Source: Oscillospiraceae bacterium
GTDB taxonomy: Bacteria; Bacillota; Clostridia; Oscillospirales; Oscillospiraceae
DNA: 64,000 bases
NCBI GenBank assembly: GCA_017461445.1
Contig: JAFTXW010000012.1
Location: 59,944 to 123,943, forward strand
Direction: 5' to 3'
This document shows positions 2,753-60,264 of this stretch, piece by piece. Position 1 is the first letter of the stretch; the number at the start of each line of letters is the position of its first letter. The notes beneath the pieces are model-generated. The model saw only the letters and a program-made list of their open reading frames with translations, did not search any database and was not told where the DNA came from. The position numbers and the translations under genes were made by a program.

Positions 2753-2829
2753 GTTCAGTTCCCCTACAGCATAACATGTATGCAGAACCTTGTCAAGAAA
2801 AAGGATTTGTGGTATGATGTTTTAAATTC

Positions 2830-2906
2830 GGAATTAGGAATGAGGTGTTAGGAATTCTTGATATGGGCAATTCCTAACGCCTAATTCATTACTTCTAATT
2901 CGTGAC
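2830..2906. repeat. Long imperfect inverted repeat
   Basis: Arms of about 26 bases (GAATTAGGAATGAGGTG... and ...CGCCTAATTC plus a second partial arm) face each other around a ~12-base loop. The right arm runs into the last codons of the DUF4830 gene. It may act as that gene's terminator or be a short palindromic repeat element. A hairpin of similar style but different sequence lies at 11,150-11,250. Confidence 0.6.
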
Positions 2907-3383
2907 TTCGGCCCCCTCACTTTCCTGAGGCATTTTGAAGCTCTGGATCTTGCCGCCTGCGGCGGTATCGGTCACGTCGCCGCCAATAACCTTATTTTTG
3001 TAGACCAGCAGGGTGGCGTAGACCGGCTCGGTGGCACCGGGATAGTTATTGATTTTGTACACGAACCGCATGACGGTTTTTCCGGCGTAGTCCGTCAGGT
3101 CATAGCCCTGGCTTTTCTGCAGGTTGTTGTACCGCTCGAAGACCTCGCTGGTTGCTTCGGGGATCTTCACCTGGCTGGTCTCCGCCGGGGAGGTGGTCAC
3201 ATCCCAGCCGAAGTCCTTCAGAAACTGCACCCGTCCGTCGTTGTTGGACACGGCGGGGGCTGCGGTGGTCTCGGCTTCCTCTCCGCCGCCCATCAGCAGG
3301 ATCATGGCCAGGATCAGCGCGGCTACGGCAATCAGGATCAGCATTATTTTTTTCATATCGACCTTTGCGGTCATTACCATCAT
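2895..3383 (-). CDS. DUF4830-like membrane-anchored protein
   Basis: 162 residues: an N-terminal hydrophobic segment (about residues 10-30, MKKIMLILIAVAAL...), a short T/A-rich linker and an extracellular domain starting FLKDFGWDV, which resembles DUF4830 proteins of clostridia. It is probably tethered to the outer face of the membrane. No function is established. The ATG at 3383 follows GGAGGGAG at good distance; an upstream ATG at 3407 lacks a comparable site. It is divergent from the pseudouridine synthase gene. Confidence 0.65.
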   Translation of the reverse strand: MMVMTAKVDMKKIMLILIAVAALILAMILLMGGGEEAETTAAPAVSNNDGRVQFLKDFGWDVTTSPAETSQVKIPEATSEVFERYNNLQKSQGYDLTDYAGKTVMRFVYKINNYPGATEPVYATLLVYKNKVIGGDVTDTAAGGKIQSFKMPQESEGAEVTN

Positions 3384-31729: not shown

Positions 31730-32962
31730 TTAGAAGATATCCAGTTTTGACAGGTTTTCAAATGTTTGTTGCTTTTTGCGATCCGTAGCTTCGGCGTATA
31801 TGTCCATCGTGGTTTCAATGTTACGGTGGCCCATAATTGCCTGGATCACTTTCAAATTGGTTTCGTGTTCACAAAGCCTGGTGCAAAATGTGTGCCGGAG
31901 ATGGTGACAAGAAAAATCAGGAAGGATAATCGGATCTCGTCGCTCTCGTTTTGCTTTAACAACCTCTTCGGAATTGTAGCTATGAGAGATGCGCTTGATC
32001 GTTCGGTTAATGGTCTGAGGATTAGGAACTCCGCCATTTCGGTTAACAAACACAAATCCGGTCATTCCATCAATGACGGTCTGATTGAAGCCATTTTCTT
32101 CCTGCTCTTCTCGTTCCAGCATAAAGGCATCGTATACCGTATCAAGCATCGGAACGGTTCGAATACCAGCTTCGGTCTTTGGTTTTGAGATCTTTTGCAC
32201 TGATGTGCGGGAATCTCCCACAGGATAATAAACCATGCTGTGGTTAACACTGATGACCCTATTCTCAAAGTCAAGATCTTCCCAGCGCAGGCCCAGAGCT
32301 TCGCCGATGCGGCATCCAGTACCAAGCAGAACGGTAAACATGGGCCACCAGTGGTAATAAACCGGATGGTTGGCAATATACCCCATAAATGCCCGTTGCT
32401 GTTCAACGGTTAATGCTCTGCGGATACCTCTGGTTTTGTCTGTTTCTTTAGCGATCTCCTTCATGACACCATCGGAGGGATTCTTGCGAATGATTTCATC
32501 CCGAACCGCAAGCTGAAATGTCGGATGCAGCAGTGTATTGATATTATCCAGTGTGCTGAGTGCGAGCCCATCGTCGTTCAACAGGTAAAGATAGAACTGG
32601 AGGACATCGGAAAACTTTATCTCTGCAATCTTTTTCTTACCAAATGTTTCTCTGACATACCTGTCATACATGTATGTATAGTTACTGCGAGTGGTTTCTC
32701 TCAGTTTAAATTTGGTAGAAAGATAACGGTCAAATGTATCATTGACTGTGGCCTTACCGGCTACATACAGATCCAGACCATCCAGCTGATCCTTTACCAG
32801 CTGTTTTTCCTTTTCTCGAAGCTCAACCAAATCATTTGCGTATATGAATTTGCGCCGACCCAAAGGATCGGTGTACGTATACATATAACGCTTATCCGAA
32901 GCTCTTTGAACCTCACCCTTTCTAAGTGCTCTGCCCCGGTCATCTTTGCGTGCTTTTGCCAT
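31730..32962 (-). CDS. int: Tyrosine integrase, Tn916/Tn1549 type
   Basis: 410 residues. N-terminal arm-binding region with YTYTDPLGRRKFIYANDL, SAM-like core-binding domain (about 65-165), then catalytic domain with Arg in GTGCRIGEALGLRW, HLRHTFCTRL (H-x-x-R), GHRNIETTMDIYAEAT (His and nucleophile Tyr). All catalytic residues are present, so it should be active. AAGGAGG precedes the ATG. It lies at the element edge, transcribed outward, behind a ribbon-helix-helix gene and a strong promoter at 33,202-33,230. Confidence 0.95.
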   Translation of the reverse strand: MAKARKDDRGRALRKGEVQRASDKRYMYTYTDPLGRRKFIYANDLVELREKEKQLVKDQLDGLDLYVAGKATVNDTFDRYLSTKFKLRETTRSNYTYMYDRYVRETFGKKKIAEIKFSDVLQFYLYLLNDDGLALSTLDNINTLLHPTFQLAVRDEIIRKNPSDGVMKEIAKETDKTRGIRRALTVEQQRAFMGYIANHPVYYHWWPMFTVLLGTGCRIGEALGLRWEDLDFENRVISVNHSMVYYPVGDSRTSVQKISKPKTEAGIRTVPMLDTVYDAFMLEREEQEENGFNQTVIDGMTGFVFVNRNGGVPNPQTINRTIKRISHSYNSEEVVKAKRERRDPIILPDFSCHHLRHTFCTRLCEHETNLKVIQAIMGHRNIETTMDIYAEATDRKKQQTFENLSKLDIF

Positions 32963-33548: not shown

Positions 33549-33804
33549 TGCCTGTGGCGAACAGGTCCATAGAAATTTCATCTCCCCGCCTTCACTATGG
33601 CCGGGCCGCGTTTTACGGAAGTACCATTGTACCTTTGCGGATCCTCGCGTTATATGGGTGCTACCCATATATAAGTGCTCATGGTTCTGATAGGCTGTCA
33701 GAAGGATAGCCGCTCCTCAACAAAGGGATGTATCAACTGGAAGGTATGAACTTTTCAAGGTGCAACGGGTGGGGGTAAGTCCCTCACTACTAAAGAGCCA
33801 TGAG
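33549..33804. ncRNA. Candidate structured RNA between xis-like gene and terminator
   Basis: In a 395-base coding gap the plus strand can form CCTGT/ACAGG (33,551-33,565), TATATGGGT/ACCCATATA (33,651-33,671), GGCT/AGCC (33,693-33,711) and GTGGGGG/CCCTCAC (33,769-33,787). The last two are enclosed by an 11-pair stem CTCATGGTTCT/AGAGCCATGAG (33,678-33,688 with 33,794-33,804). No good frame or known RNA family was recognised. The strand is uncertain. The style recalls the ends of IS605/TnpB-like elements, but no transposase remains. Confidence 0.45.
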
Positions 33805-35564: not shown

Positions 35565-35641
35565 GGTCCGCTCGTCTAAATGGTAAGGACACAGCCCTTT
35601 CAAGGCTGTAATGCTCGGTTCAAGTCCGGCGCGGATCACCA
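35565..35641 (+). tRNA. tRNA-Glu (UUC)
   Basis: 77 bases with encoded CCA. Acceptor GGTCCGC / GCGGATC, anticodon stem CAGCC/GGCTG with loop CTTTCAA, T-arm with GGTTCAAGTCC. It would read GAA/GAG. Copies on mobile elements are often divergent from host tRNAs. Confidence 0.85.
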
Positions 35642-35644
35642 CAT

Positions 35645-35720
35645 GGTGCCTTCGTCTAATTGGTTAGGACACCAGCCTCTCAAGCTGGAAACACGGGTTC
35701 GAGTCCCGAAGGCATCACCA
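35645..35720 (+). tRNA. tRNA-Glu (CUC)
   Basis: 76 bases with CCA, three bases after the previous tRNA. Acceptor GGTGCCT / AGGCATC, anticodon stem CCAGC/GCTGG with loop CTCTCAA, T-arm GGGTTCGAGTCCC. Reads GAG. Confidence 0.85.
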
Positions 35721-35725
35721 GATAT

Positions 35726-35815
35726 GGAGCGTGAATCCGAAAGGTTCGGGGACCGCCTGCTAAGCGGATCGTACTGAGAAATCGGTATCAGATTCGAATT
35801 CTGCGCGCTCCGCCA
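35726..35815 (+). tRNA. tRNA-Ser (GCU)
   Basis: 90 bases with CCA and a long variable arm. Acceptor GGAGCGT / GCGCTCC, anticodon stem CCGC/GCGG with loop CTGCTAA. Reads AGC/AGU. Confidence 0.85.
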
Positions 35816-35818
35816 TAT

Positions 35819-35895
35819 GTGAACATAGCTCAGCAGGATAGAGCAGCTTCCTTCTAAGCAGCGGGGCGGGGGTTCGAGTCCCTCTGTTCACACCA
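35819..35895 (+). tRNA. tRNA-Arg (UCU)
   Basis: 77 bases with CCA. Acceptor GTGAACA / TGTTCAC, D-arm GCTC/GAGC, anticodon loop CTTCTAA giving UCU, T-arm GGGGGTTCGAGTCCCTC. The anticodon stem GCTTC/GCAGC has one mismatch. Reads AGA/AGG. A weak hairpin GGGCG/CGCCC follows at 35,905-35,930. Confidence 0.8.
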
Positions 35896-40120: not shown

Positions 40121-40232
40121 TGTAGCACCTCCATAACTTGCGTATTATCTTGCGTATTATCTGCCACTATTATACTATGCCCGGAATAAAAATCAAGTAC
40201 CTGCACAAAAGCATATATCATGAATCTACGGC

Positions 40233-40272
40233 AAAAAAGGACGGAGACCCAAACTGGGTTTCCGTCCTTTTC
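40233..40272 (-). terminator. Intrinsic terminator of the primase operon
   Basis: Minus strand AAAAGGACGGAAACCC-AGTTT-GGGTCTCCGTCCTTTTTT. Near-copy of the hairpin at 38,299. It separates the primase gene from fic. Confidence 0.85.
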
Positions 40273-46055: not shown

Positions 46056-47093
46056 TTAAATCGGTTGTACCGAGACTTTCACCTTGCGGCTTGTAGATAC
46101 ATTCAGGACATCCGCGTAGATGCTGGGATATTTCTTCTTCAGAGCATCGCTGCTGGGCCGCTTGGTGGTTCTTGTCACGAAGTCGATGAGGAGCTTATCT
46201 TTGGTAGTGGTCAGAATACCGTGCTCGTGTTCCTTCATCACTTCGGCAATTCGCACGGAGTGTGCTTCAATCTCCTTTTCATAAAGTTTCTTTTCAGCTT
46301 CGCAATCCTTGATTTTTCCCTGCAGCAGAGCAATCTGCCGAAGCGGATGCTCAAACTTAGATGAAAACTCAATGGTTGGAAGGCCTGGTTGACTGTTGCC
46401 ATAGATTCTTGCGAGGGATTCCATGGCCAATGTGGGTTTGACACCACTCATTGTGGGCGGGGCATCGTGCTCAAGGCTCCAGATCCACTCATCTAACCGT
46501 TCAAAGATCATGTCTTCTTTGACACGGTCGCGCTCAATCTCCGGCATGGCCAAATCGTTCGCAGGATTATTTCCCCAGATACAGGAGAAAGCACCGTGCT
46601 GAACATCTGCAACTGCCAGATAGAAACGAAGCTGGAATTCGTAATAAAGTGGAATCGCCTCATCGCTCCAACCGTCTGCCTTGTGGTAGGTGCAGCTCTT
46701 ACACTCTAAAATCCCAGACTCGCCATCGCTGGCCCGCTCATAGCGCCGATCAAAATTTGCCAGTGCATAAGGGTGGTCTGCATGCTGATAGAGGCCCTTG
46801 TCTTCATAGACATAATTGCCGCTTTTCTTCGCGTACCAGTGTGCCGCAATGGGCTCCAGAAGATGACCCATTTCAAGCTGGTCTGCATTGTCCTTCGGCT
46901 TGGGCTTCATGCGTCCCTTTTTGATCATCCACAGTTCCAACGGAGTTGTCCACGGTGACACGCCGAATATGGCTGCCACATCGCTGCCTCCGATGGTGAA
47001 GGGAATGTCACCTTTGGGACCATGCATTCTGCATTCCAGCCAGCGCTCATTGCTCATGCCTGTGGTGTCGCAAAGCAGGATCGGAGCTGCCAT
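46056..47093 (-). CDS. YqaJ-family viral recombinase/exonuclease
   Basis: 345 residues. YqaJ domain in residues 10-190: RWLECRMHGPKGDIPFTIGGSDVAAIFGVSPWTTPLELW, acid residues in GHLLEPIAAHWY, and ECKSCTYHKAD with the Glu-x-Lys nuclease motif. Such nucleases (lambda Exo-like) resect DNA ends for annealing proteins. ATG at 47,093 overlaps the stop of the gene before it (TAATG), so translation is coupled. Confidence 0.85.
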   Translation of the reverse strand: MAAPILLCDTTGMSNERWLECRMHGPKGDIPFTIGGSDVAAIFGVSPWTTPLELWMIKKGRMKPKPKDNADQLEMGHLLEPIAAHWYAKKSGNYVYEDKGLYQHADHPYALANFDRRYERASDGESGILECKSCTYHKADGWSDEAIPLYYEFQLRFYLAVADVQHGAFSCIWGNNPANDLAMPEIERDRVKEDMIFERLDEWIWSLEHDAPPTMSGVKPTLAMESLARIYGNSQPGLPTIEFSSKFEHPLRQIALLQGKIKDCEAEKKLYEKEIEAHSVRIAEVMKEHEHGILTTTKDKLLIDFVTRTTKRPSSDALKKKYPSIYADVLNVSTSRKVKVSVQPI

Positions 47094-48232
47094 TACCAAC
47101 TCACCGCCTTCGCAAGATCATAGTCACTCCACCGGATAGACAGGGCACGGGCCATGTTCTCCTCAACGGTGAGCATTTTTGCTTCCGGTGCGTGATGGGT
47201 CTTCAGCAGATACGGAATCTCCTGCATAGCCATGAATACATCATGAGCAGAGGCAGGTCCACCGCCATAAGCCATCTCATACATGGCGATTGCCTCCAAA
47301 GACTCTTTCTTGGGAAGAGAGAGCTTCTTACAGACCCGGGTCATGGCGTTGGCCGGATATTCTAACTGAATTTCCAGAAGGCTCTGCAACTTTGCAACAG
47401 AATCACAGAATTGAGCGAACAGCTGATCCAGTTCAGATTCAAAATCTGTGACCTTTTTCTTGTGCCGATGATCTACCGCAATACAGCCGCCGAGGTGGAT
47501 CGGATGCTGGGTTCCCATCAGCATGGCGGATACCTTTGCAGAGGACAGACCCGTATCAGAGGTCATGAAGCGAATGCCAGGAACCAGGCGGGATGCGATG
47601 GAGATTTTGCCGTAGAATGCCAGTGCCTTTGCATAAGCACCAAGCAGATCTTCTTTCTGGCTGGGGAAAGTCCAACTACCGCAGGTATAGGAATGATCAC
47701 TGTACCCGCCTTCAAATTGAAAACCGGGGAAGCGTTCACCCATCTTCTTTTCCAGAGTGACCAGAAGCTCATCCATGGGAAGCACGGAATAATCCTTCTC
47801 ATCACCGGAGTGGGCTGCAGATACCTTCTCCTCGCGAATCAGGAGAAGCGCATCGGAGTTATGGACTGCCAGACAGGCATTGAGGACATTGGCCAGCTCC
47901 TTGCGGCTGAGCTTAGGGAGTGCGCTGCCGTTGATCTTCGCACGATCCAGCAGGGTCTTGTAGGCTGTAGAACGGACAGGATAGATATTTCCGTCTACAT
48001 TCAATGCGAGGCCGAGGTTTGCGACAGTATCCGAGACAGCTTCCTCGCTGGTTCCTGCGGCGAATGCCGAGGTGTGACCATACAGAGGAGAGGTGCCGTC
48101 CAGAGGTTCCACATGCAGGTCTTTGACCTTGCAGGTTTTCCAACTGGAGCCTACGCTCAGTGCCTTATGGTAGCTGAGCATGGATGGATAGTTGTCAAAG
48201 GTGGTTGTGTAGTTGTCGTGACAGGGTAACAT
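47093..48232 (-). CDS. Conserved mobile-element protein of unknown function
   Basis: 379 residues, soluble, first gene of a recombination/replication operon. The stretch YPVRSTAYKTLLDRAKINGSALPKLS... is reminiscent of phage/plasmid DUF932-like proteins, but this is not certain. AAAGGAGC is eight bases upstream of the ATG. Transcribed from the promoter-leader at 48,283-48,470. Confidence 0.6.
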   Translation of the reverse strand: MLPCHDNYTTTFDNYPSMLSYHKALSVGSSWKTCKVKDLHVEPLDGTSPLYGHTSAFAAGTSEEAVSDTVANLGLALNVDGNIYPVRSTAYKTLLDRAKINGSALPKLSRKELANVLNACLAVHNSDALLLIREEKVSAAHSGDEKDYSVLPMDELLVTLEKKMGERFPGFQFEGGYSDHSYTCGSWTFPSQKEDLLGAYAKALAFYGKISIASRLVPGIRFMTSDTGLSSAKVSAMLMGTQHPIHLGGCIAVDHRHKKKVTDFESELDQLFAQFCDSVAKLQSLLEIQLEYPANAMTRVCKKLSLPKKESLEAIAMYEMAYGGGPASAHDVFMAMQEIPYLLKTHHAPEAKMLTVEENMARALSIRWSDYDLAKAVSW

Positions 48233-48282
48233 ATTGCTTGCTCCTTTCGGTTTTGTGACGGGGACCGCCGGATATAACAAAA

Positions 48283-48470
48283 GCCAGCAGCCCCCTCAGA
48301 AAGGAGACTACTGGCCTGTGTTCACGATTAGATTGTCAGAAAACAAAAAAATGCCATTCACGCGAATGCGCAAATGACACTTGTGAGAACTTGGAAACTA
48401 TGATTGCTTTTGCAAAACTCTGATACTGTAACAACAGCATTATATCATAGCTATAAGCGTTAGTCAATTG
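48283..48470 (-). promoter_or_regulatory. Promoter and tandem-terminator leader A
   Basis: Minus strand: TTGACT (48,462-48,467), 17 bases, TATAAT (48,439-48,444). A ~150-base leader follows with two terminator-like hairpins. The first is AAGTGTCATTTGCG / CGTGAATGGCATT followed by seven T (about 48,345-48,382). The second is GCCAGTAGTCTCC / GGGGGCTGCTGGC followed by TTTTG (48,283-48,315). The same arrangement recurs at 56,305-56,470. It governs the 48,232-to-40,280 operon. Confidence 0.8.
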
Positions 48471-48529
48471 GTTGGGATAAATTCCATCACAACACTTTTC
48501 GCACACGAACAAGGAGCAATCGTGTGTTT

Positions 48530-48994
48530 TTATGTCTTCATGCTTCTTCGCTTGTTGTTTCTTTGCTTGCCAACAGTCATTTGGAATGACCCAGATCGCT
48601 GCTTATTTTGCCTTAGCTTTTCCGCGAATCCACCCACTGCGTCAAATAAGAGCATCCATCTGTTTGCATGCTCCAGTATCTTCATTTGGATTCCTTCAGT
48701 CTCGACAGGGCATTGAATAAAATCTGAGTACTGATATTCGCGTACCAAATCGGTATCATCAGTTAACCATACATCGTAAACAGTCCACCCCGGGTTTTCT
48801 AAGTCAACTGCATACTCAATAATCAGGCGGATTCCATAATAATTCGCCATTTCCATTGGAACAAGGATTTCAAACGAAAATACCGGATTTATGAGAGACC
48901 AGTTCAGATTTAATCCACCTTTAACAGCTCGAACATTACCAAATTTTGTATCACCATCGCGCATTCTTATGTATACTTTATTTTGCTTAACCAT
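48530..48994 (-). CDS. Hypothetical protein
   Basis: 154 residues: mostly beta-strand-like sequence (NKVYIRMRDGDTKFGNVRAVK..., WTVYDVWLTDDTDLVREYQY) with a basic tail. No family recognised. The start at 48,994 follows AAAGGAGAAAATCTC. It is the last gene of the operon that begins at SSB. Confidence 0.55.
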   Translation of the reverse strand: MVKQNKVYIRMRDGDTKFGNVRAVKGGLNLNWSLINPVFSFEILVPMEMANYYGIRLIIEYAVDLENPGWTVYDVWLTDDTDLVREYQYSDFIQCPVETEGIQMKILEHANRWMLLFDAVGGFAEKLRQNKQRSGSFQMTVGKQRNNKRRSMKT

Positions 48995-49074
48995 GAGATT
49001 TTCTCCTTTGCCGTACATAGTATTAATGAAGGATGCCTCCATTGTGGGCGGCATCCTAATTCTTACGTCAGCAG

Positions 49075-49482
49075 CTATCTCCAACTTAGCGTCAAGCCAT
49101 TGAGATCTTTAATACGTTGTAAAATGCGGGTAAAGAGTTCGAACTTGGGTGGCCATTCATCAACAGCCCATTCAATTACCATTGCTTCTAACTGCGCATC
49201 CTGCTGAGCTATTACAAAGTTACAGTCGTATGGCAAAATCGGCTGCCCGATATATTCCGTGTAGATACCAATTTCACTGCGTTCCAGCCTTTTTTGATCT
49301 TCCCAAGAGAAAACCAACTTGCCAAGATAGGTAGTTCTGTGACATGTCTTATAGGCAGCGATGATATCTCTGCTCAGATCATTGAAGGTGTCATCTCCGA
49401 CAGGAACATTTTCAAGATGCCCCCAAAAGAACAGATATTCATCCTGCTTTTGCAGAGCTTCTTTCAGTTTGGCATCATTCAT
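49075..49482 (-). CDS. Hypothetical protein
   Basis: 135 residues, acidic, no known domain. Its ATG lies inside the previous gene's stop region (GATAATGAATGA), so it is coupled. GGAGGGG precedes it. Confidence 0.6.
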   Translation of the reverse strand: MNDAKLKEALQKQDEYLFFWGHLENVPVGDDTFNDLSRDIIAAYKTCHRTTYLGKLVFSWEDQKRLERSEIGIYTEYIGQPILPYDCNFVIAQQDAQLEAMVIEWAVDEWPPKFELFTRILQRIKDLNGLTLSWR

Positions 49483-50341
49483 TATCCAGCCCCTCCTTAA
49501 AAGTTTTCACCAAGGCAAACGATGCTTCTGAGACAGATTCCCAGTAAGCATCTCTCAAATATGCATTTTCTGCCAAGTGTTTGCGGATGCGCTGAGGAAC
49601 AATAGGCAAGGCAATCATTTTGTTAATCTGATCATCAGTCATGTTCTCCAACTCATCCCAGCATTCAATTTGTTCTGCAAAATGCTTGCGAAGTTGCATG
49701 TCTATATAGGTTTTCCCAATTGCCTCAAACAGGTCGTAACCCATACACATTTCGTGGCGGTATACAGCGGCTCTATAATGATTGGAAGAATATTCTCCAT
49801 CTAGCCAAGACTCAAAGAACAAAGGCGTAGTCCCTGTTTTAAACCGAGGATCACTGCACCATTCAGATGTGACTCCGTTTTGCTTCTCATCGTTGACCAT
49901 TTGCGTGAGAATGCGCTTGGCTTGAGCTTCGTCGAAGGCAAACTCAATGGTTATTCCGGCATCGTCCTCGCTGATCCATTCTTCACGTACTTCGTATACA
50001 CCAAATCGCTTAATTTCCGGTACTGAATTCAAAATGGTGATCATCTCTGGAGCCATTATGACAATATCTAGAGTGATGTCTTTCAGCTTCTTTTTCTGTC
50101 CGTACAGGTAGGAAAACCTGCTCTCCAGTGTTTTGATTTCCTCCGGATCAAAGGGGGGGATAAATGTACAGTAAATATCAGGCGTGTCGTTATCGGTTTC
50201 CTGATCGTTGCCATCACGGATTTCTGCAATAGTGCCAAAGAGACCTTCATATTCGCTTTCTGCGTTGGCAATTACGGTATCACCAATCGTGTAGGTGATA
50301 CCCGCATAGTGGAATTTAGTGCCAATACGATTGATAGTCAT
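49475..50341 (-). CDS. Hypothetical protein
   Basis: 288 residues. The N-terminal part (GTKFHYAGITYTIGDTVIANAESEYEGLFGTI) looks like a small beta-barrel (SH3/KOW-like) fold, followed by helical and mixed segments. No domain assigned. GAAAGGAAACAGGA precedes the ATG. A terminator hairpin separates it from the 59-residue gene upstream. Confidence 0.6.
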   Translation of the reverse strand: MTINRIGTKFHYAGITYTIGDTVIANAESEYEGLFGTIAEIRDGNDQETDNDTPDIYCTFIPPFDPEEIKTLESRFSYLYGQKKKLKDITLDIVIMAPEMITILNSVPEIKRFGVYEVREEWISEDDAGITIEFAFDEAQAKRILTQMVNDEKQNGVTSEWCSDPRFKTGTTPLFFESWLDGEYSSNHYRAAVYRHEMCMGYDLFEAIGKTYIDMQLRKHFAEQIECWDELENMTDDQINKMIALPIVPQRIRKHLAENAYLRDAYWESVSEASFALVKTFKEGLDNE

Positions 50342-50365
50342 ATTCCTGTTTCCTTTCAAAAAATA

Positions 50366-50399
50366 GGAGGACAACCCGACTGGGCTGTCCTCCCGCCTT
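50366..50399 (-). terminator. Intrinsic terminator
   Basis: Minus strand GGAGGACAGCCC-AGTC-GGGTTGTCCTCC followed by TATTTTTTG. It lies inside the operon and may lower expression of the last three genes. Confidence 0.8.
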
Positions 50400-50407
50400 A
50401 GGAGATG

Positions 50408-50587
50408 TTAGTGTGGTTTTCTCTTTAGAGGTTCAAGTAGACCAATAAAATGTTCTACAGGTGGAGTGCCTGGCTTGACCATAGCAAAGAATTTTGGTGC
50501 AACAGAAACAGCGGTGTCTTCGTCGTACCCCTTCTCCATGATCAGCTTTGCGGCTTTCTTAAGGTTTCTTGGTGTCTTATATCGCAT
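50408..50587 (-). CDS. Small hypothetical protein
   Basis: 59 residues, basic (MRYKTPRNLKKAAKLIMEKG...), with GAGGTGATGGT before the ATG, four bases after the VWA gene's stop. Probably a real small partner of the VWA protein. Not recognised. Confidence 0.6.
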   Translation of the reverse strand: MRYKTPRNLKKAAKLIMEKGYDEDTAVSVAPKFFAMVKPGTPPVEHFIGLLEPLKRKPH

Positions 50588-50591
50588 ACCA

Positions 50592-52913
50592 TCACCTCAG
50601 AAACCGCTTGATGACTGCGGTCAGCTTTGCCGGGAGCTGATTGAGATCAGTAATATCAAGGTAGGAATCACCATAGATACGCTCGATGTTTTGCTTGTCC
50701 TCGCCAATTGCGGCAGCGACGAACAAAATGCCTTTACGCTTGTATTCCTGTTTGATACCACGCAAATCCTCTTCTGCAGCGGTTCCGCTGTATCCGCTGG
50801 CTGCCGGCTGTCCATCCGAGACCAGCATGAGAAGACGAACTTCCTCTGGTCGTTTGGAAAGCTGCTCTGCCACAAAGCGGAGAGCTGCACCATCACGATT
50901 ACTGGCCCGGGCCGAGATGTCCATCAGCCGGAACTTATCATCCCGGTCAATACTATCGAACTCGGCATAGGAGTATAGTGATACGCCTCGTCCACTGGTG
51001 GAATGGCCATAAACCATAATGGGGATGTTCAGCGACTGGCAGAAATCATAGAGGATGATGGCTGCAGCACGGGCATAGGTGCTGCGGTCGCTGCAGCTCA
51101 TGGAGCCGGACTCGTCCAGTAGCAGACCGACAGAAATCTTTGGGATCTCGTTGGGCAGGTTGTTCTTGTAGAACACCTTGCCATCGTTGCGGCACAGTGC
51201 GTGCGCATCCAGACGGCGGCCCATGACTAGACCCGTTTGCTTTCCGCCGCGCTGCTGGTCTTTTAATTTTTGCACCAGACTGCGTTGAAGCTGTCTGGAG
51301 ATGTCCAGAAGAGGGCCTGCAATCATGTGATACTGATCTTCCAACTGGTCATCTACTTGAGAAATCCGATGGACCTTGATGTCGACACCACTGTGGATGT
51401 CACCGTAGGAGATGCTTTGGGCAGCTTCGTTTAATTCCTTGAGACGCTCAGACTCAAGCTGCTTACACGCTGCCTTTTCTGCCATCTGTTCCAGCATCCG
51501 CTCAATATCGGAAGCGGCATGCTCGTTCAGTTCTCGTTTGTAGGCGTCATCGTATGAGATCTCTCCGCCTGTAGGAGCTGAGACAGAATCGGTCTGGTGG
51601 AATGGGATGCGTCCACCTTCTTTGTCCGTTGTTTCCTGCTTTCCGGATGTCCCGTTGGGGCCGTCCAGAGGAGCGCCGACGGAGTCAGAACTATCAGAGC
51701 CACCTTCAGAATCAGTCTGGTCAGAATTGGGTATTTCTTCGGACGGTTTCCCGGCTGTCTCATCTTTTCCAGACTCATTCGATTCTGTACCAGATGCCCC
51801 AGACTCATCTGATTTATTCTCTTTATCCTCAGACCCATTTTGACGGGCCAACGCCTGCGTGCGCGCACGGGCTGCAGCGTGTGCTGCAATGCCCTTCATA
51901 GCATCCGAGCCTGCAACAGGCTTTCCGGAGCCAGTACCCTCAGCAGATGCACCGGCAATGATCTGGAGTAGACCGGACAGGACTTCACCTGCAGAGCTTC
52001 CAGATCCGGAAGCAGTGGCATCTTCCTGGTGTTTCTTGCACATTTCAATGTAGTCCTCAATGTAGTGCCAACACCTTACCATGATGAGGCTTACGACTTT
52101 CCAACGCTGCTTTGCGGAGGTGGTAGCCAGAGATTCATCGATCTGAGGAATCAGCTGGAACACGGTCTGGATGCGCTCATCGGAGAGCGGTGTGTCATCA
52201 TACTTGATTTCACCATATAAGGCATAGGAGAGCATGATCTGCAGGATCGAGTGGAAGATGTGGCTGCTGCCATCAGCCTCACGCTCGATGAGCTGCGTGA
52301 CCGTACTCATATCCTCATACTGGTGGTCACGCATGACAGAAAGATTATAGCCCAGCACACCGGGAAACTCAGAGAGGATTCGATTTTCGATGTATCCATC
52401 CTCTAGCAAATTGGCGATGAAGGATGCGATGAGCATAGCGAATTCCATATTCCGCTTATCCAGCTTCACATACTCCCAGAAATCCCGTTCATTGGTCACA
52501 TCCCGGGTCGTCTTCAGCTCCGGAGGTGCCGGGTACCATTTGTATTTCTCCAGGTAATTAAGGTAGGTCTGTTTTGCCAGAAAGTCTGTATACAGCACAT
52601 GGCCCAACTCGTGGGAAAATAAGCCGGATACCATTTCATAGCGGTTCATGCGGCCCCGGATCTTTGTGACACAGGGATGACCAGCATTGATCACAATGCT
52701 GGTATTGTTGGTACTGGCACCGTTGGGGTCATCGGGATTCCAGTAGATGTTGACATGGACACGGCGGTCGTAGCGGTAACGCTTGGACTGGGCCGCTGCC
52801 ACATCTTCATAGTGACCTGCCAGAATCCGGGAAGTAAAGAACTGCTTATCGGTGATCTTGCTCCGGTGCTCGTTCAGAAGCTGTTTGACACGCTTATGAC
52901 TTACTCTTGCCAT
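50592..52913 (-). CDS. VWA-domain protein with N-terminal HExxH (metallopeptidase-like)
   Basis: 773 residues. N-terminal region with FSHELGHVLYTDF, an HExxH zinc motif (about residues 88-100); a long low-complexity linker rich in Ser, Gly, Glu and Asp (about 315-460); and a C-terminal von Willebrand A domain with the MIDAS motif LLLDESGSMS (DxSxS) near residue 605. The layout recalls CobT-like and DUF2201-type proteins that work with MoxR AAA ATPases. It follows such an ATPase by 16 bases. The substrate is unknown. Confidence 0.75.
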   Translation of the reverse strand: MARVSHKRVKQLLNEHRSKITDKQFFTSRILAGHYEDVAAAQSKRYRYDRRVHVNIYWNPDDPNGASTNNTSIVINAGHPCVTKIRGRMNRYEMVSGLFSHELGHVLYTDFLAKQTYLNYLEKYKWYPAPPELKTTRDVTNERDFWEYVKLDKRNMEFAMLIASFIANLLEDGYIENRILSEFPGVLGYNLSVMRDHQYEDMSTVTQLIEREADGSSHIFHSILQIMLSYALYGEIKYDDTPLSDERIQTVFQLIPQIDESLATTSAKQRWKVVSLIMVRCWHYIEDYIEMCKKHQEDATASGSGSSAGEVLSGLLQIIAGASAEGTGSGKPVAGSDAMKGIAAHAAARARTQALARQNGSEDKENKSDESGASGTESNESGKDETAGKPSEEIPNSDQTDSEGGSDSSDSVGAPLDGPNGTSGKQETTDKEGGRIPFHQTDSVSAPTGGEISYDDAYKRELNEHAASDIERMLEQMAEKAACKQLESERLKELNEAAQSISYGDIHSGVDIKVHRISQVDDQLEDQYHMIAGPLLDISRQLQRSLVQKLKDQQRGGKQTGLVMGRRLDAHALCRNDGKVFYKNNLPNEIPKISVGLLLDESGSMSCSDRSTYARAAAIILYDFCQSLNIPIMVYGHSTSGRGVSLYSYAEFDSIDRDDKFRLMDISARASNRDGAALRFVAEQLSKRPEEVRLLMLVSDGQPAASGYSGTAAEEDLRGIKQEYKRKGILFVAAAIGEDKQNIERIYGDSYLDITDLNQLPAKLTAVIKRFLR

Positions 52914-52929
52914 ACAGAGACCTTCTTTC

Positions 52930-54804
52930 TCAGGAGGCCCTGCGGCGCTTGGGAGCAAAGATGGGTTCCAGAATTGCCGTTTTCAGTGTTTCACGGTCTT
53001 CCTCGTCGGAGGTTGCCTTACTGATGATGGTGCAAAGGGCACTGCGGTAAGGATCGCCGGTGATCTCTGTGCTGGTGACCCAGTCGATGAGGCTTCTCAT
53101 ACCACAGGAACCATCCGTGATACCGTTCTTGCGCATATACTCGGCCATATCATTGACCACCTGAACCATCTGCGTTACCTGGTACTCATCGGTGGCACCG
53201 GTAACAGCCATAGCACGCTGGGCCATGATCTCCGGTGCGGGCAGTTCGATATCCTCCACCAGACTCATTCTGTCAACGACGGATTGATTGAGGCCCCGGC
53301 AACCTTCGTAGGTGATATTGGTCGTAACCACGACCACCGTGTCGGGATGCCGCTGAATGACCTCGCCGGTAGGGAGTGTGATAGAACCGGTCTGCTCCAA
53401 AAGAGAGTTCAGACCCACCAGAACACCGGGCTGGGTTATTACTGTGGGTTCCTGTATCTCCACAACATAGCCGTACTTCAGAGCCTTGATAAAATCAGTC
53501 TCCACATAGGTGTAGGTCTGGCCAGAACTGGATGCTTGCTCTGCAGGTTTGGTCAATGCCTTGATCTTCTCTGTGACCATATCCATGACAACAGCCATGC
53601 AATCACGGGAAGTGGCATCCTCATTTTCTATGCCTGTCAGACACTGAAATGTGCCTGCGGGGTCATAGTCCATGTCATCAAGGTCAGGAAGATTCATGAT
53701 CTTTGCCACATTGGCATAGTTGATACCACCCATAGACTGCAGCATTTCCCGCTGCTTATCCAGTTCTGCATCGCCTGTAGTCATGGAATCCGTCTTGGGG
53801 AATACCATACCGACAAAATCGAATACTTCGGTGGATGCTGAGCAGGTGTACTTCATATAGGGCAGATGCAGACCTGCTGCAATTGCTCTGGCACCTTGGG
53901 TCTTACCGGTTCCGGCAGGACCACGGAGCAAAAAGTTTCGCATCTGCATGGGTTTTCCCGTTGTGTTCAGGGCGTGCTTACAGATGTCGACTACTTCATC
54001 CGGGATGATGTACCAGTCTTCCAGTTTTGGGACCATGCTTTCTTCCAAGAGGGACAGCTTTCTGGTACCAGTCAGCTGGTACTTTCCCACGAAATCTCTG
54101 TGGTCAATGGAAGCTCTGGAAGCGGATACCGTTACCTTGCCAGTCTTGGCGAAAATGGTAAACTCACCTGCCAGAACAGAATTGGGGGTATAGACACCAG
54201 CCAGCAGATGACTCTGGGAGACCCGCATGGTATTACCAGACTTGTCCAGTGTGATATTGATATGCGCCGGGCAGGTATCGTCCTTGATCCGGCGGTAAGC
54301 ATTGTCACAGAGGATTGCCATGGCATCTGTGGCTTTCTTCAGATCCGGATAGCCTGCATTGCGCTGATCAAAATAAGTCTGGAAGTTCTCGTCAAACTCA
54401 TCATCTTTCAGGAGTAGCGGCATTAGTGCCATCATCACTGCGGCACCATCTTTGTCGCTCTGGTGGAGCTTGTAGCTCTCAATGACTTCCGTATTCTTAT
54501 CATAGACACTGGCCATGATGTTACCGCTGCCACTGTCGAACACCACAAGGTGGAACAGATCAGGGCCGGCAGAGGATTTGTACTCCGCAACAGTGCGGTG
54601 ATCAATGGAGCCAACTGCACCTTCGCCTGTGCCGGTCATGCAGTTACAGACCGCATGGACGGCCTTGATCATGGTACAGCACAGCGTTGCCTCGGTGCCA
54701 CTGCCATACTTAGAGGAGATTTTCAACTTTTTGTTCGCCAGTTTATCGAAGGGTTCCGGTAAGGATCTGGCGAAGTTAAAGAGGTTACCCATAGAAACAC
54801 TCAT
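52930..54804 (-). CDS. MoxR-like AAA ATPase
   Basis: 624 residues. The N-terminal ~270 residues are not assigned. The C-terminal AAA domain has Walker A RGPAGTGKTQGARA (about 295-308), a large insertion (about 340-430, with DDMDYDPAGTFQCL) and a sensor region VVVVTTNITYEGCRGLNQSV (sensor 1 NI). It matches AAA_5/MoxR ATPases that remodel proteins together with VWA partners. ATG with AAAGGAAA upstream. Confidence 0.75.
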   Translation of the reverse strand: MSVSMGNLFNFARSLPEPFDKLANKKLKISSKYGSGTEATLCCTMIKAVHAVCNCMTGTGEGAVGSIDHRTVAEYKSSAGPDLFHLVVFDSGSGNIMASVYDKNTEVIESYKLHQSDKDGAAVMMALMPLLLKDDEFDENFQTYFDQRNAGYPDLKKATDAMAILCDNAYRRIKDDTCPAHINITLDKSGNTMRVSQSHLLAGVYTPNSVLAGEFTIFAKTGKVTVSASRASIDHRDFVGKYQLTGTRKLSLLEESMVPKLEDWYIIPDEVVDICKHALNTTGKPMQMRNFLLRGPAGTGKTQGARAIAAGLHLPYMKYTCSASTEVFDFVGMVFPKTDSMTTGDAELDKQREMLQSMGGINYANVAKIMNLPDLDDMDYDPAGTFQCLTGIENEDATSRDCMAVVMDMVTEKIKALTKPAEQASSSGQTYTYVETDFIKALKYGYVVEIQEPTVITQPGVLVGLNSLLEQTGSITLPTGEVIQRHPDTVVVVTTNITYEGCRGLNQSVVDRMSLVEDIELPAPEIMAQRAMAVTGATDEYQVTQMVQVVNDMAEYMRKNGITDGSCGMRSLIDWVTSTEITGDPYRSALCTIISKATSDEEDRETLKTAILEPIFAPKRRRAS

Positions 54805-54827
54805 AGGATGATTTCCTTTCTGCAGTA

Positions 54828-55598
54828 TTACTGCTCAAATTCAATGATGATGCCTTCGTCACAGCACTGAGCACTGTGAAAATCGTTGCGGATCAGTACC
54901 TTGCATACTTCCTCCCAGCTTTCTGAAACAGGAAGTTCATCCGCAGGAATGAGATATTCGCTGAGTCCTTCTGCAATAGCTTCATTACAGAGGTCATTCA
55001 ACTCCATCACATGAGCTTCGACCCAACTGAAGGCAATGAGGCCGAAGTTTTCAGGCATAGGCTCGTCTTCCTCTTCAGCCGGTGGTGTGGGAGGCATGGA
55101 ATCTGGATTGTTGGCAGGATCCCTCACAGGTTGATCGGTCTTGGTTTTTTCTTCCTCAAAGACAACATCAATCACCTGAAGCTGCCGGATTATGACCTGC
55201 CCGCGGCGATAGCCGCCAGCTTTGTTCAAAAGCACATAGACAGGATTACCAGCCAGAATGTCTTCCTGCGCTCTGGGATTTTCCCAGATCCATCTGGCAT
55301 CCGGGAATCTGCTTAAAAGGATTTGAGAAATCCTTTGCTGGATAATCATGTAAGCCATGGTTTGTACGTCCGCTGCGTTGGGTGGCTTGCTTGGTGGCGG
55401 CAGCAGTACAGGCATGGGCTTAATTGGTTCTACCTTCTTCGAGGCAAGAAACAACAGGCGCAAGGCTGCAATAAAAATTCCTAGAATAATCAGAAGGAGG
55501 ATCGGCCACAGGCGGGTAATATAGGTCAGCAACGCAAGCTGCCCCAGAATTACCAAAGCCTCGTAAGCCCAATGCCGTTGGTTGTTTTTTTCGTTCAT
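54828..55598 (-). CDS. Membrane-anchored hypothetical protein
   Basis: 256 residues: two N-terminal transmembrane segments (about residues 12-50), then a cytoplasmic domain with a Pro/Glu-rich linker (about 160-185). No family recognised. AAAAGGAG precedes the ATG. It is encoded between SSB and the MoxR ATPase and could anchor that complex to the membrane. Confidence 0.6.
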   Translation of the reverse strand: MNEKNNQRHWAYEALVILGQLALLTYITRLWPILLLIILGIFIAALRLLFLASKKVEPIKPMPVLLPPPSKPPNAADVQTMAYMIIQQRISQILLSRFPDARWIWENPRAQEDILAGNPVYVLLNKAGGYRRGQVIIRQLQVIDVVFEEEKTKTDQPVRDPANNPDSMPPTPPAEEEDEPMPENFGLIAFSWVEAHVMELNDLCNEAIAEGLSEYLIPADELPVSESWEEVCKVLIRNDFHSAQCCDEGIIIEFEQ

Positions 55599-55624
55599 GC
55601 TGAATCTCCTTTTCTGGGCAACAA

Positions 55625-55672
55625 AAAACGCACATGGGCATTCTTTGGAAAATACTCATGTGCGTTTTATAT
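55625..55672 (-). terminator. Intrinsic terminator after ssb
   Basis: Minus strand AAAACGCACATGAG / CCCATGTGCGTTTT followed by TTGTTG; stem of about 12 pairs. It lies between ssb and the membrane protein gene and may partly separate them. Confidence 0.65.
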
Positions 55673-55706
55673 GCCTGATTCAATTATGGTGCTACTTCTG
55701 CAACCA

Positions 55707-56216
55707 TCACAGATTGAAGAAGTTGTTGCCACCGCCGAAGCTCTCATAGCCGGTGAAATTGCCGGGCATCTGGAAGCTTTCCTGAGGCGCAGCTGCAGGT
55801 GCTGCTGCAGGTGATGCGGGTGTAGGGGCGTTGTTGGATTGATTGTTGCTTGCTTTCTGACCATCGCCGGAACGTTTACCGCTGCCTCCGCTGTATTCCA
55901 GGTCATCCAGAATCACGCAAGGCATGCTGCGCTTCTCTTTGGTTTCATCATCTTCCCAGACATCCTCATCATAGCGACCAGTCAGATTGATAAAGGAACC
56001 TTCCTTCAGACCCATTTTGCGGATACGGTCGATGAGACCAGCATCAAAGCACTTGACAGTGATGTTGACCCAGCGATGGTTGTCTGCTGCGCGGGGGTCG
56101 TAGACCTTCTGGCCTACACGGAACCGCACAAAATCGCCTTTGTCCGAAAACTTGACGGCGGGTGTATTCTGGTAGCCTTTGGAGACCACCACATCGGATG
56201 CGAAGAGCTTTAACAT
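55707..56216 (-). CDS. ssb: Single-stranded DNA-binding protein
   Basis: 169 residues. OB-fold domain (residues 1-110; NITVKCFDAGLIDRI, GSFINLTGRYDEDVW) followed by an Asn/Ala/Pro-rich tail that ends ...GGNNFFNL instead of the classical acidic tip DDDIPF. It protects single strands during replication or recombination of the element. First gene of the operon behind leader B (56,305-56,470). Confidence 0.85.
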   Translation of the reverse strand: MLKLFASDVVVSKGYQNTPAVKFSDKGDFVRFRVGQKVYDPRAADNHRWVNITVKCFDAGLIDRIRKMGLKEGSFINLTGRYDEDVWEDDETKEKRSMPCVILDDLEYSGGSGKRSGDGQKASNNQSNNAPTPASPAAAPAAAPQESFQMPGNFTGYESFGGGNNFFNL

Positions 56217-56304
56217 TGTTGACTCCTTTCTGCAGGTTTTGCCTGCAACGAAAAATATATATTTCTACCTGCTGTTTTCAGGTGGAAACCGGGGGAATAA
56301 AAAA

Positions 56305-56470
56305 AGAGCCCCCTTTTCTGAAAGGAGACTACTGTGTCAGAAATTAAAAAAGTGCCATTTACGCCAAGACGCAAATGACACTTGTGAGAACACGGATACT
56401 ATGATTGCTTTTGCAAAACACTGATACTGTAACAATGGCATTATAACATAGCTATAAGCATTAGTCAATC
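56305..56470 (-). promoter_or_regulatory. Promoter and tandem-terminator leader B
   Basis: Minus strand: TTGACT (56,463-56,468), 17 bases, TATAAT (56,440-56,445). Leader with hairpin AAGTGTCATTTGCGT / ACGTAAATGGCACTT-like stem followed by six T, then AGTCTCCTTT / AAAGGGGGCT followed by CTTTTTTT. Highly similar to leader A at 48,283-48,470. The -35 box overlaps the stop codon of the gene at 56,465. Confidence 0.8.
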
Positions 56471-58540: not shown

Positions 58541-59791
58541 ATGGCAAGACTGATATTTCATGTAGATGTGAATAGTGCATTCTTGTCTTGGGAAGCTGCC
58601 CGGAGAGTATCCAACGGTGAGCCTGACATTCGGTTGATCCCTTCTGTCATTGGTGGAGACCGTGAGAAGCGTACCGGTGTTGTTCTGGCTAAGTCCATTC
58701 CTGCAAAAAAGCTTGGAATCAGAACGGGTGAGCCAATCGGCATGGCTCTGCGCAAATGTCCCGACCTGTTCATGGCAAAGCCGGACTTCCGCCTTTACGA
58801 GGAAAACTCCCAAAAATTCATGGATGTCTGCCGTGAGTATGCACCTATTGTGGAGAAGGCCAGTATCGATGAATGCTATTTGGACCTCAGCGGTACCCAT
58901 AGAATCTATCCGGATCCAATTGCACTGGCCCATAAAATTAAGGATAGGATCCGCGATGAGTTCAAATTTACTGTGAATATCGGAATCGGTGAAAATAAGC
59001 TCCTTGCTAAGATGGCCAGCGATTTTGAGAAGCCGGATAAAGTACATACCTTGTTCCTGCATGAGGTTCCGCAGAAAATGTGGCCGCTGCCTGTAGGAGA
59101 ATTGTTCACGGTGGGAAGTTCTACTGCGGATAAGCTGCGCCGGGCCAAAATCATGACTATTGGCGACTTGGCACATACCGACCTCGAAAAGATCCAGAAA
59201 ATCGTAGGCATGAAGATGGGAAAGCATATCCATGACTATGCAAATGGTATTGATCCGGCTCCAGTTCTGGCAGAACCGGAGGAGGCCAAAGGATATAGCA
59301 TCTCTACCACCTTGGAGGAGGATGTAAAAAAAGCGTCTCAGGCTTATCCTGTGCTGCTGGCACTGTCGGATAGCGTAACTTCCCGGATACGCAGTGATGG
59401 TGCAAAAGCGTACTGTGTGGCGGTCACTATCCGAAGCAATGATTTCAAAACGAAGTCCCATCAACGGAGCTTGATGAACCCTACGGATATTTCTGACGAG
59501 GTGTATGAGCTAAGTAAAGAACTGTTCGATGAATTGTGGGATGGCAGGACACCGCTTCGGTTGCTTGGTGTTGCCCTGACCAATATAACCCGAGAGGACA
59601 CGATGCAGTTTTCTCTTTTTCAGGATGAGAAGAAGGAAAAAGCCCGAAGACTGGACAAAGCAAAGGATGCATTGAATGCAAAATTTGGATCCGCAACAAT
59701 TGTCCGAGGATCCAGTATGCAATCAAAAATCGATGTAGGAAAGAAATATCAGGCTCAGATTGAGCAGAAAAAGAAGGAGCATAAAATATGA
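58541..59791 (+). CDS. Y-family DNA polymerase (DinB/UmuC-like)
   Basis: 416 residues. Catalytic motifs: IFHVDVNSAFLSWE (Asp of motif I), ASIDECYLDLSG (Asp-Glu of motif III), HhH (IMTIGDLAH) and a little-finger domain to about 360. It copies past DNA damage. GGGGTGAAATT precedes the ATG. The C terminus is charged (KKYQAQIEQKKKEHKI) without a clear beta-clamp peptide. Confidence 0.85.
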   Translation: MARLIFHVDVNSAFLSWEAARRVSNGEPDIRLIPSVIGGDREKRTGVVLAKSIPAKKLGIRTGEPIGMALRKCPDLFMAKPDFRLYEENSQKFMDVCREYAPIVEKASIDECYLDLSGTHRIYPDPIALAHKIKDRIRDEFKFTVNIGIGENKLLAKMASDFEKPDKVHTLFLHEVPQKMWPLPVGELFTVGSSTADKLRRAKIMTIGDLAHTDLEKIQKIVGMKMGKHIHDYANGIDPAPVLAEPEEAKGYSISTTLEEDVKKASQAYPVLLALSDSVTSRIRSDGAKAYCVAVTIRSNDFKTKSHQRSLMNPTDISDEVYELSKELFDELWDGRTPLRLLGVALTNITREDTMQFSLFQDEKKEKARRLDKAKDALNAKFGSATIVRGSSMQSKIDVGKKYQAQIEQKKKEHKI

Positions 59792-60264
59792 ATAGGAAGC
59801 TTGTCGCTTATTTCTCTGCCAGCGGTGTGACTGCAAAAGTTGCTGAGATGCTGGCTGATGCTGTTGGTGCCGACATTTATGAGATTCGTCCTGCGGTACC
59901 ATATACCAAAGCTGATTTGAACTGGATGGATAAGAAGTCCCGCAGCACCATCGAGATGAATGATAAATCCATCCGTCCTGCCATTGCGGATACGAATGCA
60001 CAGATCGATCAGTATGAGACCATTTTCCTGGGTTTCCCGATTTGGTGGTATGTGGCACCAACGATTATCAACACCTTCCTGGAGAGCTATGATTTCTCTG
60101 GTAAGAAGATCATTCTTTTTGCTACCTCCGGCGGCAGTAAGTTTGGAAAGACCGTTGAGGAGTTGAAGGTAAGTGTCCCTGCTTCCTGCGAGATCATTGA
60201 GGGCAAGCTGCTCAATGGCAAACAGACGATTCCTACGATTCGTTCTTGGACGGATACGTTATGA
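59788..60264 (+). CDS. Flavodoxin
   Basis: 158 residues. FMN-binding phosphate loop AYFSASGVTAKVAEMLADA (residues 6-24) and LGFPIWWYVAP typical of flavodoxin-like NAD(P)H quinone-reductase-type proteins. An electron carrier. ATG overlaps the polymerase stop (ATGA). Its link to a translesion polymerase is unexplained. Confidence 0.8.
   Translation: MNRKLVAYFSASGVTAKVAEMLADAVGADIYEIRPAVPYTKADLNWMDKKSRSTIEMNDKSIRPAIADTNAQIDQYETIFLGFPIWWYVAPTIINTFLESYDFSGKKIILFATSGGSKFGKTVEELKVSVPASCEIIEGKLLNGKQTIPTIRSWTDTL

Follow-up and report, generated by a model that had tools for sequence, protein, structure and literature searches.

Why do two operons of a mobile element each begin with a near-consensus promoter that is followed at once by terminator-like hairpins? 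The question is raised by a stretch of 64,000 nucleotides (nt) from an Oscillospiraceae bacterium (assembly GCA_017461445.1, contig JAFTXW010000012.1, positions 59,944 to 123,943), which is referred to as a whole as the window. It holds an integrative element with two operons, A and B, that are preceded by leaders A and B. An earlier note on this DNA had described both leaders and had proposed that they form a joint switch, either by antitermination or by attenuation. Comparison of related sequences suggests that the leaders are probably promoter-proximal antitermination sites of the element. The parts of the two leaders are as follows.

48439..48467, minus strand: promoter of leader A, TTGACT, 17 nt, TATAAT
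48420..48427, minus strand: box1 of leader A (AGTATCAG)
48404..48415, minus strand: hairpin P0 of leader A, TTGC-AAAA-GCAA, 4 base pairs (bp), one of the 13 weak stems among 92
48388..48399, minus strand: box2 of leader A (AGTTTCCAAGTT)
48343..48382, minus strand: terminator T1 of leader A with T-run
48274..48317, minus strand: terminator T2 of leader A with T-rich tail
56440..56468, minus strand: promoter of leader B, TTGACT, 17 nt, TATAAT
56421..56428, minus strand: box1 of leader B (AGTATCAG)
56405..56416, minus strand: hairpin P0 of leader B, TTGC-AAAA-GCAA, placed by identity with leader A
56389..56400, minus strand: box2 of leader B (AGTATCCGTGTT)
56345..56383, minus strand: terminator T1 of leader B with T-run
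56298..56330, minus strand: terminator T2 of leader B with T-run

How alike are the two leaders? Their places, promoters and paired terminator-like hairpins were confirmed by the sequence and by a scan of 44-62 kb, in which the two top promoter-like sites were those of leaders A and B (11 of 12 matches, a 17-nt spacer and TG before the -10). Over that region neither promoter-like sites (26 vs 23.3 in shuffles) nor terminator-like sites (19 vs 16.9) were in excess. From the promoter through T1 their identity is 89%. T2 diverges much more than T1, and the T2-to-gene stretch is unlike in the two. T1 has 15 pairs in each leader, while T2 has 17 in A and 10 in B. The top of T1 differs between the copies (GCGCATTCGCG / GCGTCTTGGCG) with its pairing preserved, as had been observed before. 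For P0 of leader B, the script that scores stems took an overlapping stem of 6 pairs instead of TTGC-AAAA-GCAA. As a DNA query against its own genome, leader A (191 nt) recovered leader B with E 2.6e-45 and 89% identity; no other place scored E 0.1 or better. A covariance model found the same two leaders and, antisense to leader B, one further weak hit (E 0.64). Rfam at gathering thresholds gave six matches in the whole window and none in the leaders, and no match at E up to 1 in 11 loci, which agrees with the earlier view that they belong to no known leader class.

Do the leaders belong to a wider family? A DNA search with leader A across 149 related genomes gave matches in four, its own genome included, and the leader was rare in samples (4 of 300 family genomes and 6 of 391 class genomes, own genome included, with filters that lose weak matches). 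Homologues of the 379-amino-acid (aa) protein encoded first in operon A were gathered irrespective of leader. Eighty loci were kept of 98 on GTDB contigs and five came from viral contigs; some of these 85 duplicate one another or genomes found earlier. A script placed the leader upstream of the gene in 79 of the 85, representing 62 distinct sequences. The remaining six comprise three contig-end cuts (L078, L113, L115), one weak model match of 33.6 bits (L088, dropped before the counts because the script chose the wrong promoter), one locus without any leader match (L108) and one distant relative (L118, 33%) whose leader is of a different kind. Genes are similarly ordered across the loci. Named carriers include Blautia, Schaedlerella, Flintibacter, Pseudoflavonifractor, Acutalibacter and Anaerofilum. 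Among the metagenome-assembled records, three are named outside Bacillota (two Bacteroidales, one Phoenicibacter), and these names may be binning errors. Searches of viral contigs for the 379-aa homologue gave no locus with the single protein, one with a T1 pattern and the five loci with the alignment. Leader A had no match in the plasmid collection. Among phage and plasmid collections, the 379-aa protein matched four unannotated faecal 'Bacteriophage sp.' records, the SSB-like protein of operon B matched one such record, and its AAA protein matched one Enterococcus plasmid. The parsed set held 112 distinct leaders, from 131 hits before repeats were removed; nine without box2 at 24-32 nt were dropped, which left 103 in the terminator counts. 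As a separate observation, four distant homologues at 33-35% (L020, L021, L022, L118) have another leader type which, by eye, shows a hairpin that retains its pairing as it varies and, upstream of the gene, a strong terminator with T-run. It is possibly a second system with the same logic.

What is conserved in this family? The 5' part consists of box1 (AGTWTC), the hairpin P0 and box2 (AGT..., commonly ACAGTTTAACAGAGTT), and the two boxes are direct repeats. Of the 112 distinct leaders, 110 have a promoter spacer of 17 nt and 108 have box1 beginning 8-11 nt past the -10; promoters match consensus at 10 or more of 12 positions in 93 of 103 leaders. The distance between the boxes is 27-29 nt in 83 of the 111 leaders that have box1. 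Most commonly, P0 starts 8 nt from the first base of box1 and ends 2 nt short of box2. The sequence of P0 varies widely: the 92 distinct inter-box sequences hold 70 different 5' arms and 76 different loops, and the twelve commonest loops include TTCG three times and TACG twice. A stem of at least 5 bp is found in 79 of these 92 sequences, where 20.8 are expected by shuffling, and in 44% with swapped halves. Selection on structure is best shown by P0. On an alignment of 62 sequences (A4, which leaves out L099, with an insert in T1, and L114, with another T1), P0 and T1 have 95.0% paired cells vs 85.3% shuffled and 96 double-changed cells vs 33.7 shuffled, with double changes at 11 of 16 model pairs. 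None of 500 shuffles, which take no account of sequence relatedness, reaches any of five measures, and alignments slid by 1-3 columns all score far lower. By eye, leaders of SSB genes (L153, L027, L138 and others) also have in common a segment resembling GGTTTCTACC..GGTTGAAATAAAT and, ahead of the ribosome-binding site, a GCAGG..CCTGC hairpin, perhaps a sign of translational control of SSB.

Could the boxes act as DNA? Box1 and box2 may be operators for a repressor or a Q-like DNA-bound factor, one near the presumed start site and the other about 28 bp further on, with T1 and T2 merely blocking stray transcription. Direct repeats fit DNA-bound protomers, box sequence and spacing are better conserved than the hairpin sequence, and Q and AlpA are reported to load at DNA sites that lie within the promoter. 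P0 pairing, however, persists through unrelated sequences, which DNA operators do not need, and terminators 3' of the promoter would also stop the operon's own transcript, with no later promoter in the 52 leaders described below. DNA-level control is an unlikely explanation of these leaders.

Does transcription of the operons have to cross the hairpins? T1 is present in 101 of the 103 parsed leaders, with a mean free energy (dG) of -20.1 kcal/mol, and the two that the script scored as lacking it (L064 and L099) both show a hairpin with a T-run by eye. It starts 13-19 nt past box2 in 98 of the 101. T2 is present in 73 of 103 leaders (mean dG -18.5 kcal/mol) and shows double changes too, in 54 distinct stretches 3' of T1. 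T1 and a start codon could both be located in 52 leaders of the 379-aa gene. Between these two points promoter scores average 7.46 vs 7.95 in shuffles; three leaders reach 9 of 12 and none reaches 10 of 12. Since no promoter above shuffles lies between T1 and the gene, the operon transcript must pass T1, and T2 where present. T1 is replaced by a different hairpin with the boxes retained in L013, L114 and several leaders of the element CCNA10; an unrelated T1 hairpin behind retained boxes and P0 was counted in 4 of 101 leaders by the script's rule, and L114 is alike by eye. Since the boxes are kept where T1 is a different hairpin, the box1-P0-box2 site is separable from the terminator. A cis site near the promoter that is separable from the terminators is a general trait of processive antitermination. 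In L013, from a genome of the same genus, the promoter, boxes and P0 recur at 2800-3223, followed by other terminators and, by eye, a different small gene.

Terminator hairpins that precede genes are also what a ribosome- or ligand-sensing attenuator would show, whether built on a leader peptide or a riboswitch. A start codon with a ribosome-binding site lies ahead of the T1 end in only 3 of 103 leaders, and there is no Rfam match. Among 101 leaders no helix competing with T1 and no conserved alternative to it was found; the 5' arm of T1 pairs with its own 3' arm at a mean probability of 0.89 and with upstream sequence at 0.022. Riboswitch and leader-peptide attenuation were rejected on the missing competitor and the rarity of open reading frames, and such an attenuator is highly improbable. 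Of the joint switch proposed earlier, the ligand-sensing part is not supported. The antitermination logic fits the conservation of a structured RNA, the several operons served per element, the terminators before the genes and the absence of a later promoter in those 52 leaders.

How many operons carry the site? Three fetched elements hold 3 (B. parvula), 5 (Acutalibacter sp. 1XD8-36) and 11 (CCNA10) leaders, and for this reason the leaders are taken to form a regulon. The 11 of CCNA10 include three divergent pairs, and one partial antisense match was left uncounted. In 16 named records, selected for carrying the 379-aa gene, the covariance model gave 1 to 8 matches each at E 0.05 or better, a few weak ones of which fall off the elements. 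Extra copies stand before operons with PcfK-like and PcfJ proteins, an LPD11 protein, a DNA methylase and an NAD-dependent DNA ligase. A promoter, a structured RNA and a terminator also make up a complete small RNA gene, and the transcript of about 90 nt ending at T1 could itself be the product, acting in trans while the downstream gene is served by readthrough. P0 arms, loops and T1 nevertheless vary between copies within one element (CCNA10), and the copies recur ahead of different operons, so that a trans-acting small RNA is very unlikely.

How would the antitermination sites work? The comparison shows a near-consensus promoter that fires into box1-P0-box2, with T1 following about 16 nt on, often T2, and then the gene. 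In the model that we favour, polymerase would by default make a short RNA of about 90 nt ending at T1. Polymerase modified at box1-P0-box2 would pass T1, T2 and later terminators of the operon, and several operons might be turned on together. We infer both the terminator action and the polymerase readthrough from sequence. The modifier may be an element-encoded protein, perhaps with two protomers on the two direct-repeat boxes and with P0 fixing their distance; this part of the model is less certain. The main alternative within antitermination would be an RNA that, like put, works on polymerase with no protein from the element. More tentatively, and with some doubt, the leaders could represent a new class of antitermination site (a direct-repeat box, a hairpin of free sequence and a second direct-repeat box) that is read by an unknown element-encoded factor and serves as the master switch of widespread clostridial integrative elements, with one copy before each of several operons.

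Are there further terminators for a modified polymerase to pass? The box1-P0-box2 site and two sense terminators in operon B (55667-55622 and 50394-50358) were absent from the earlier note. The terminators in and behind the operons are these.

55622..55667, minus strand: terminator T3 between SSB and the next gene, T-run beginning 27 nt before the start codon
50358..50394, minus strand: terminator within operon B, just ahead of a 299-aa gene
40232..40268, minus strand: terminator after the last gene (DUF3854) of operon A

A hairpin like T3 stands directly after SSB in 11 of 11 distinct loci, and its T-run begins 26-31 nt before the next start codon in six of them, the window included. The hairpin is 29 nt from the next called gene in L117, 28 in L101, 23 in L097 and 25 in L049; in L108 it is 131 nt from the next start codon. 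A terminator ahead of RecD2 was found in 9 of 12 loci, a set partly selected for having one.

Several results weigh against antitermination. Extra terminators within operons, relative to ordinary operons, are a general trait of processive antitermination that is not seen here. In operons of the 379-aa gene, terminators number 131 sense vs 162 antisense (433 kb, 56 loci), without enrichment. A terminator close before the next gene occurs in 9 of 293 gene pairs of these operons (3.1%) and in 32 of 330 of the upstream SSB/VWA region (9.7%), with 4 of 62 (6.5%), 4 of 54 (7.4%) and 3 of 31 (9.7%) in host stretches; a looser count likewise gave no clear excess. Overall, neither the opposite strand nor host stretches have fewer terminators than the operons do. 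No T2 was seen in 30 of 103 leaders, and by eye these include SSB leaders of relatives. Inter-box stems are weak in 13 of 92 sequences, leader A with its 4 bp among them, and the covariation was gauged by shuffles blind to relatedness. Box spacing is constant enough to suit a DNA-bound factor, and no factor gene could be favoured among the candidates in the elements. The similar frequency of terminators near the next gene in host stretches and the failure to find a factor would also suit leaky attenuation, in which T1 and T2 would terminate incompletely and hold expression at a low constant level, and box1-P0-box2 would act in RNA stability or pausing and not as a switch. Such leakiness sits poorly with hairpins as strong as those of T1 and T2 behind near-consensus promoters, and with boxes that are conserved between families and before several operons. 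Leaky attenuation is quite unlikely.

Which protein might load at the site? None of the candidates could be favoured. The sigma-region-4/HTH_16 pair is Tn916-like and is seen weakly in CCNA10 (E 0.011). The zinc-ribbon, 189-aa and 151-aa proteins encoded before SSB are conserved in four compared elements, and two of them look membrane-bound by eye. NusG matches number exactly one in 14 of 17 genomes, more in two and none in one, and none lies on an element. LoaP is unlikely because the only NusG match lies off the element in those 14 genomes.

How do the leaders compare with known antitermination systems? In layout and presumed function they resemble put RNA, nut sites and Q/AlpA promoters. 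At the nut sites of phage lambda, where N acts, a box and a hairpin lie past the promoter with terminators downstream, and this layout is shared with the leaders. Unlike in nut, the P0 loop is unconserved, and by eye the boxes show no clear boxA. No N-like gene was identified, though no search aimed at one was made. The putL and putR sites of HK022 are, like the leaders, cis RNAs after early promoters, in two copies, with terminators before genes; they differ in being about 70 nt long with two stem-loops and in binding the zinc-binding domain of beta' (PMC9378689). The leaders have one small hairpin before T1 in the consensus, with unconserved arms and loop and placed between two boxes, and they occur in Clostridia in up to 11 copies per element. 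Q and AlpA are reported also to combine a promoter and factor site with an intrinsic terminator that is bypassed with the factor, whereas their sites are DNA and the hairpin here covaries as RNA. In Gram-positive conjugative plasmids, the conAn system of pLS20 antiterminates long operons from their beginning. In that system, compared by description and not by sequence, protein ConAn1 and RNA conAn2 are loaded at the main conjugation promoter (PMC8955417), whereas the sites here are small and stand at several operons. Tn916 canT is antitermination in an element, and the element here has a Tn916-type integrase and a sigma-region-4/HTH_16 pair; canT was mainly tested as a 452-nt RNA acting from one place (PMC11658703), whereas the site here is about 45 nt and is repeated before several operons. 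LoaP acts with a small leader hairpin of the dfn operon ahead of a terminator, which resembles P0, but it is a NusG paralogue that uses a UNCG hairpin (PMC12691694), and P0, with its 76 loops in 92 sequences, follows no loop rule. The descriptions of canT and conAn show that Gram-positive elements use antitermination, in forms other than the leaders described here. In the excerpts available of the open-access literature, no description of this leader or element family was found.

What would follow if the antitermination reading is true? Mobile elements of many gut clostridia would keep their promoters on and control their genes after initiation via one short RNA site, a Gram-positive counterpart to the put, nut and Q sites. 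The site would give a sequence handle for finding the factor, and the switch between silent and active elements would be directly testable. The boxes and the covariance model can be used to mark the operon starts of these elements.

What do the operons and the rest of the element encode? Their first genes are as follows.

47093..48232, minus strand: first gene of operon A, 379-aa protein, whose homologues served to find the leader family
55707..56216, minus strand: first gene of operon B, SSB-like, weak matches (PHROGs E 0.00075; NCBIfam E 4.5e-7, below its cut-off)

The 379-aa protein has no match in Pfam, PHROGs or NCBIfam. It is followed in operon A by a YqaJ exonuclease, a DUF7768 protein, a RecD2 helicase and a DUF3854 protein. 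Operon B encodes the SSB-like protein, a 256-aa protein, an AAA ATPase and a CobT/VWA protein. The operon starts given earlier, 48232 and 56216, are correct; for operon A this is the start codon 3' of the ribosome-binding site, and the listed open reading frame already opens at 48280. An integrase with a Tn916-type DNA-binding domain is encoded at 31730-32962, with a sigma-region-4 gene and an HTH_16 gene close by. The contig end coincides with the window end, so that the element is cut there. Near the integrase end, Rfam places a pemK leader RNA at 33567-33630 on the minus strand. Three tRNA genes (Glu-TTC, Glu-CTC and Arg-TCT) lie at 35565-35895, inside the element between an actin-like segregation gene and the integrase end. 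At 58033-57966, directly before the zinc-ribbon gene, a promoter-like site is immediately followed by a terminator-like hairpin, with the boxes absent. Adjoining the element operons, genes for a DNA polymerase IV-like protein and a flavodoxin lie on the plus strand at 58541-60264.

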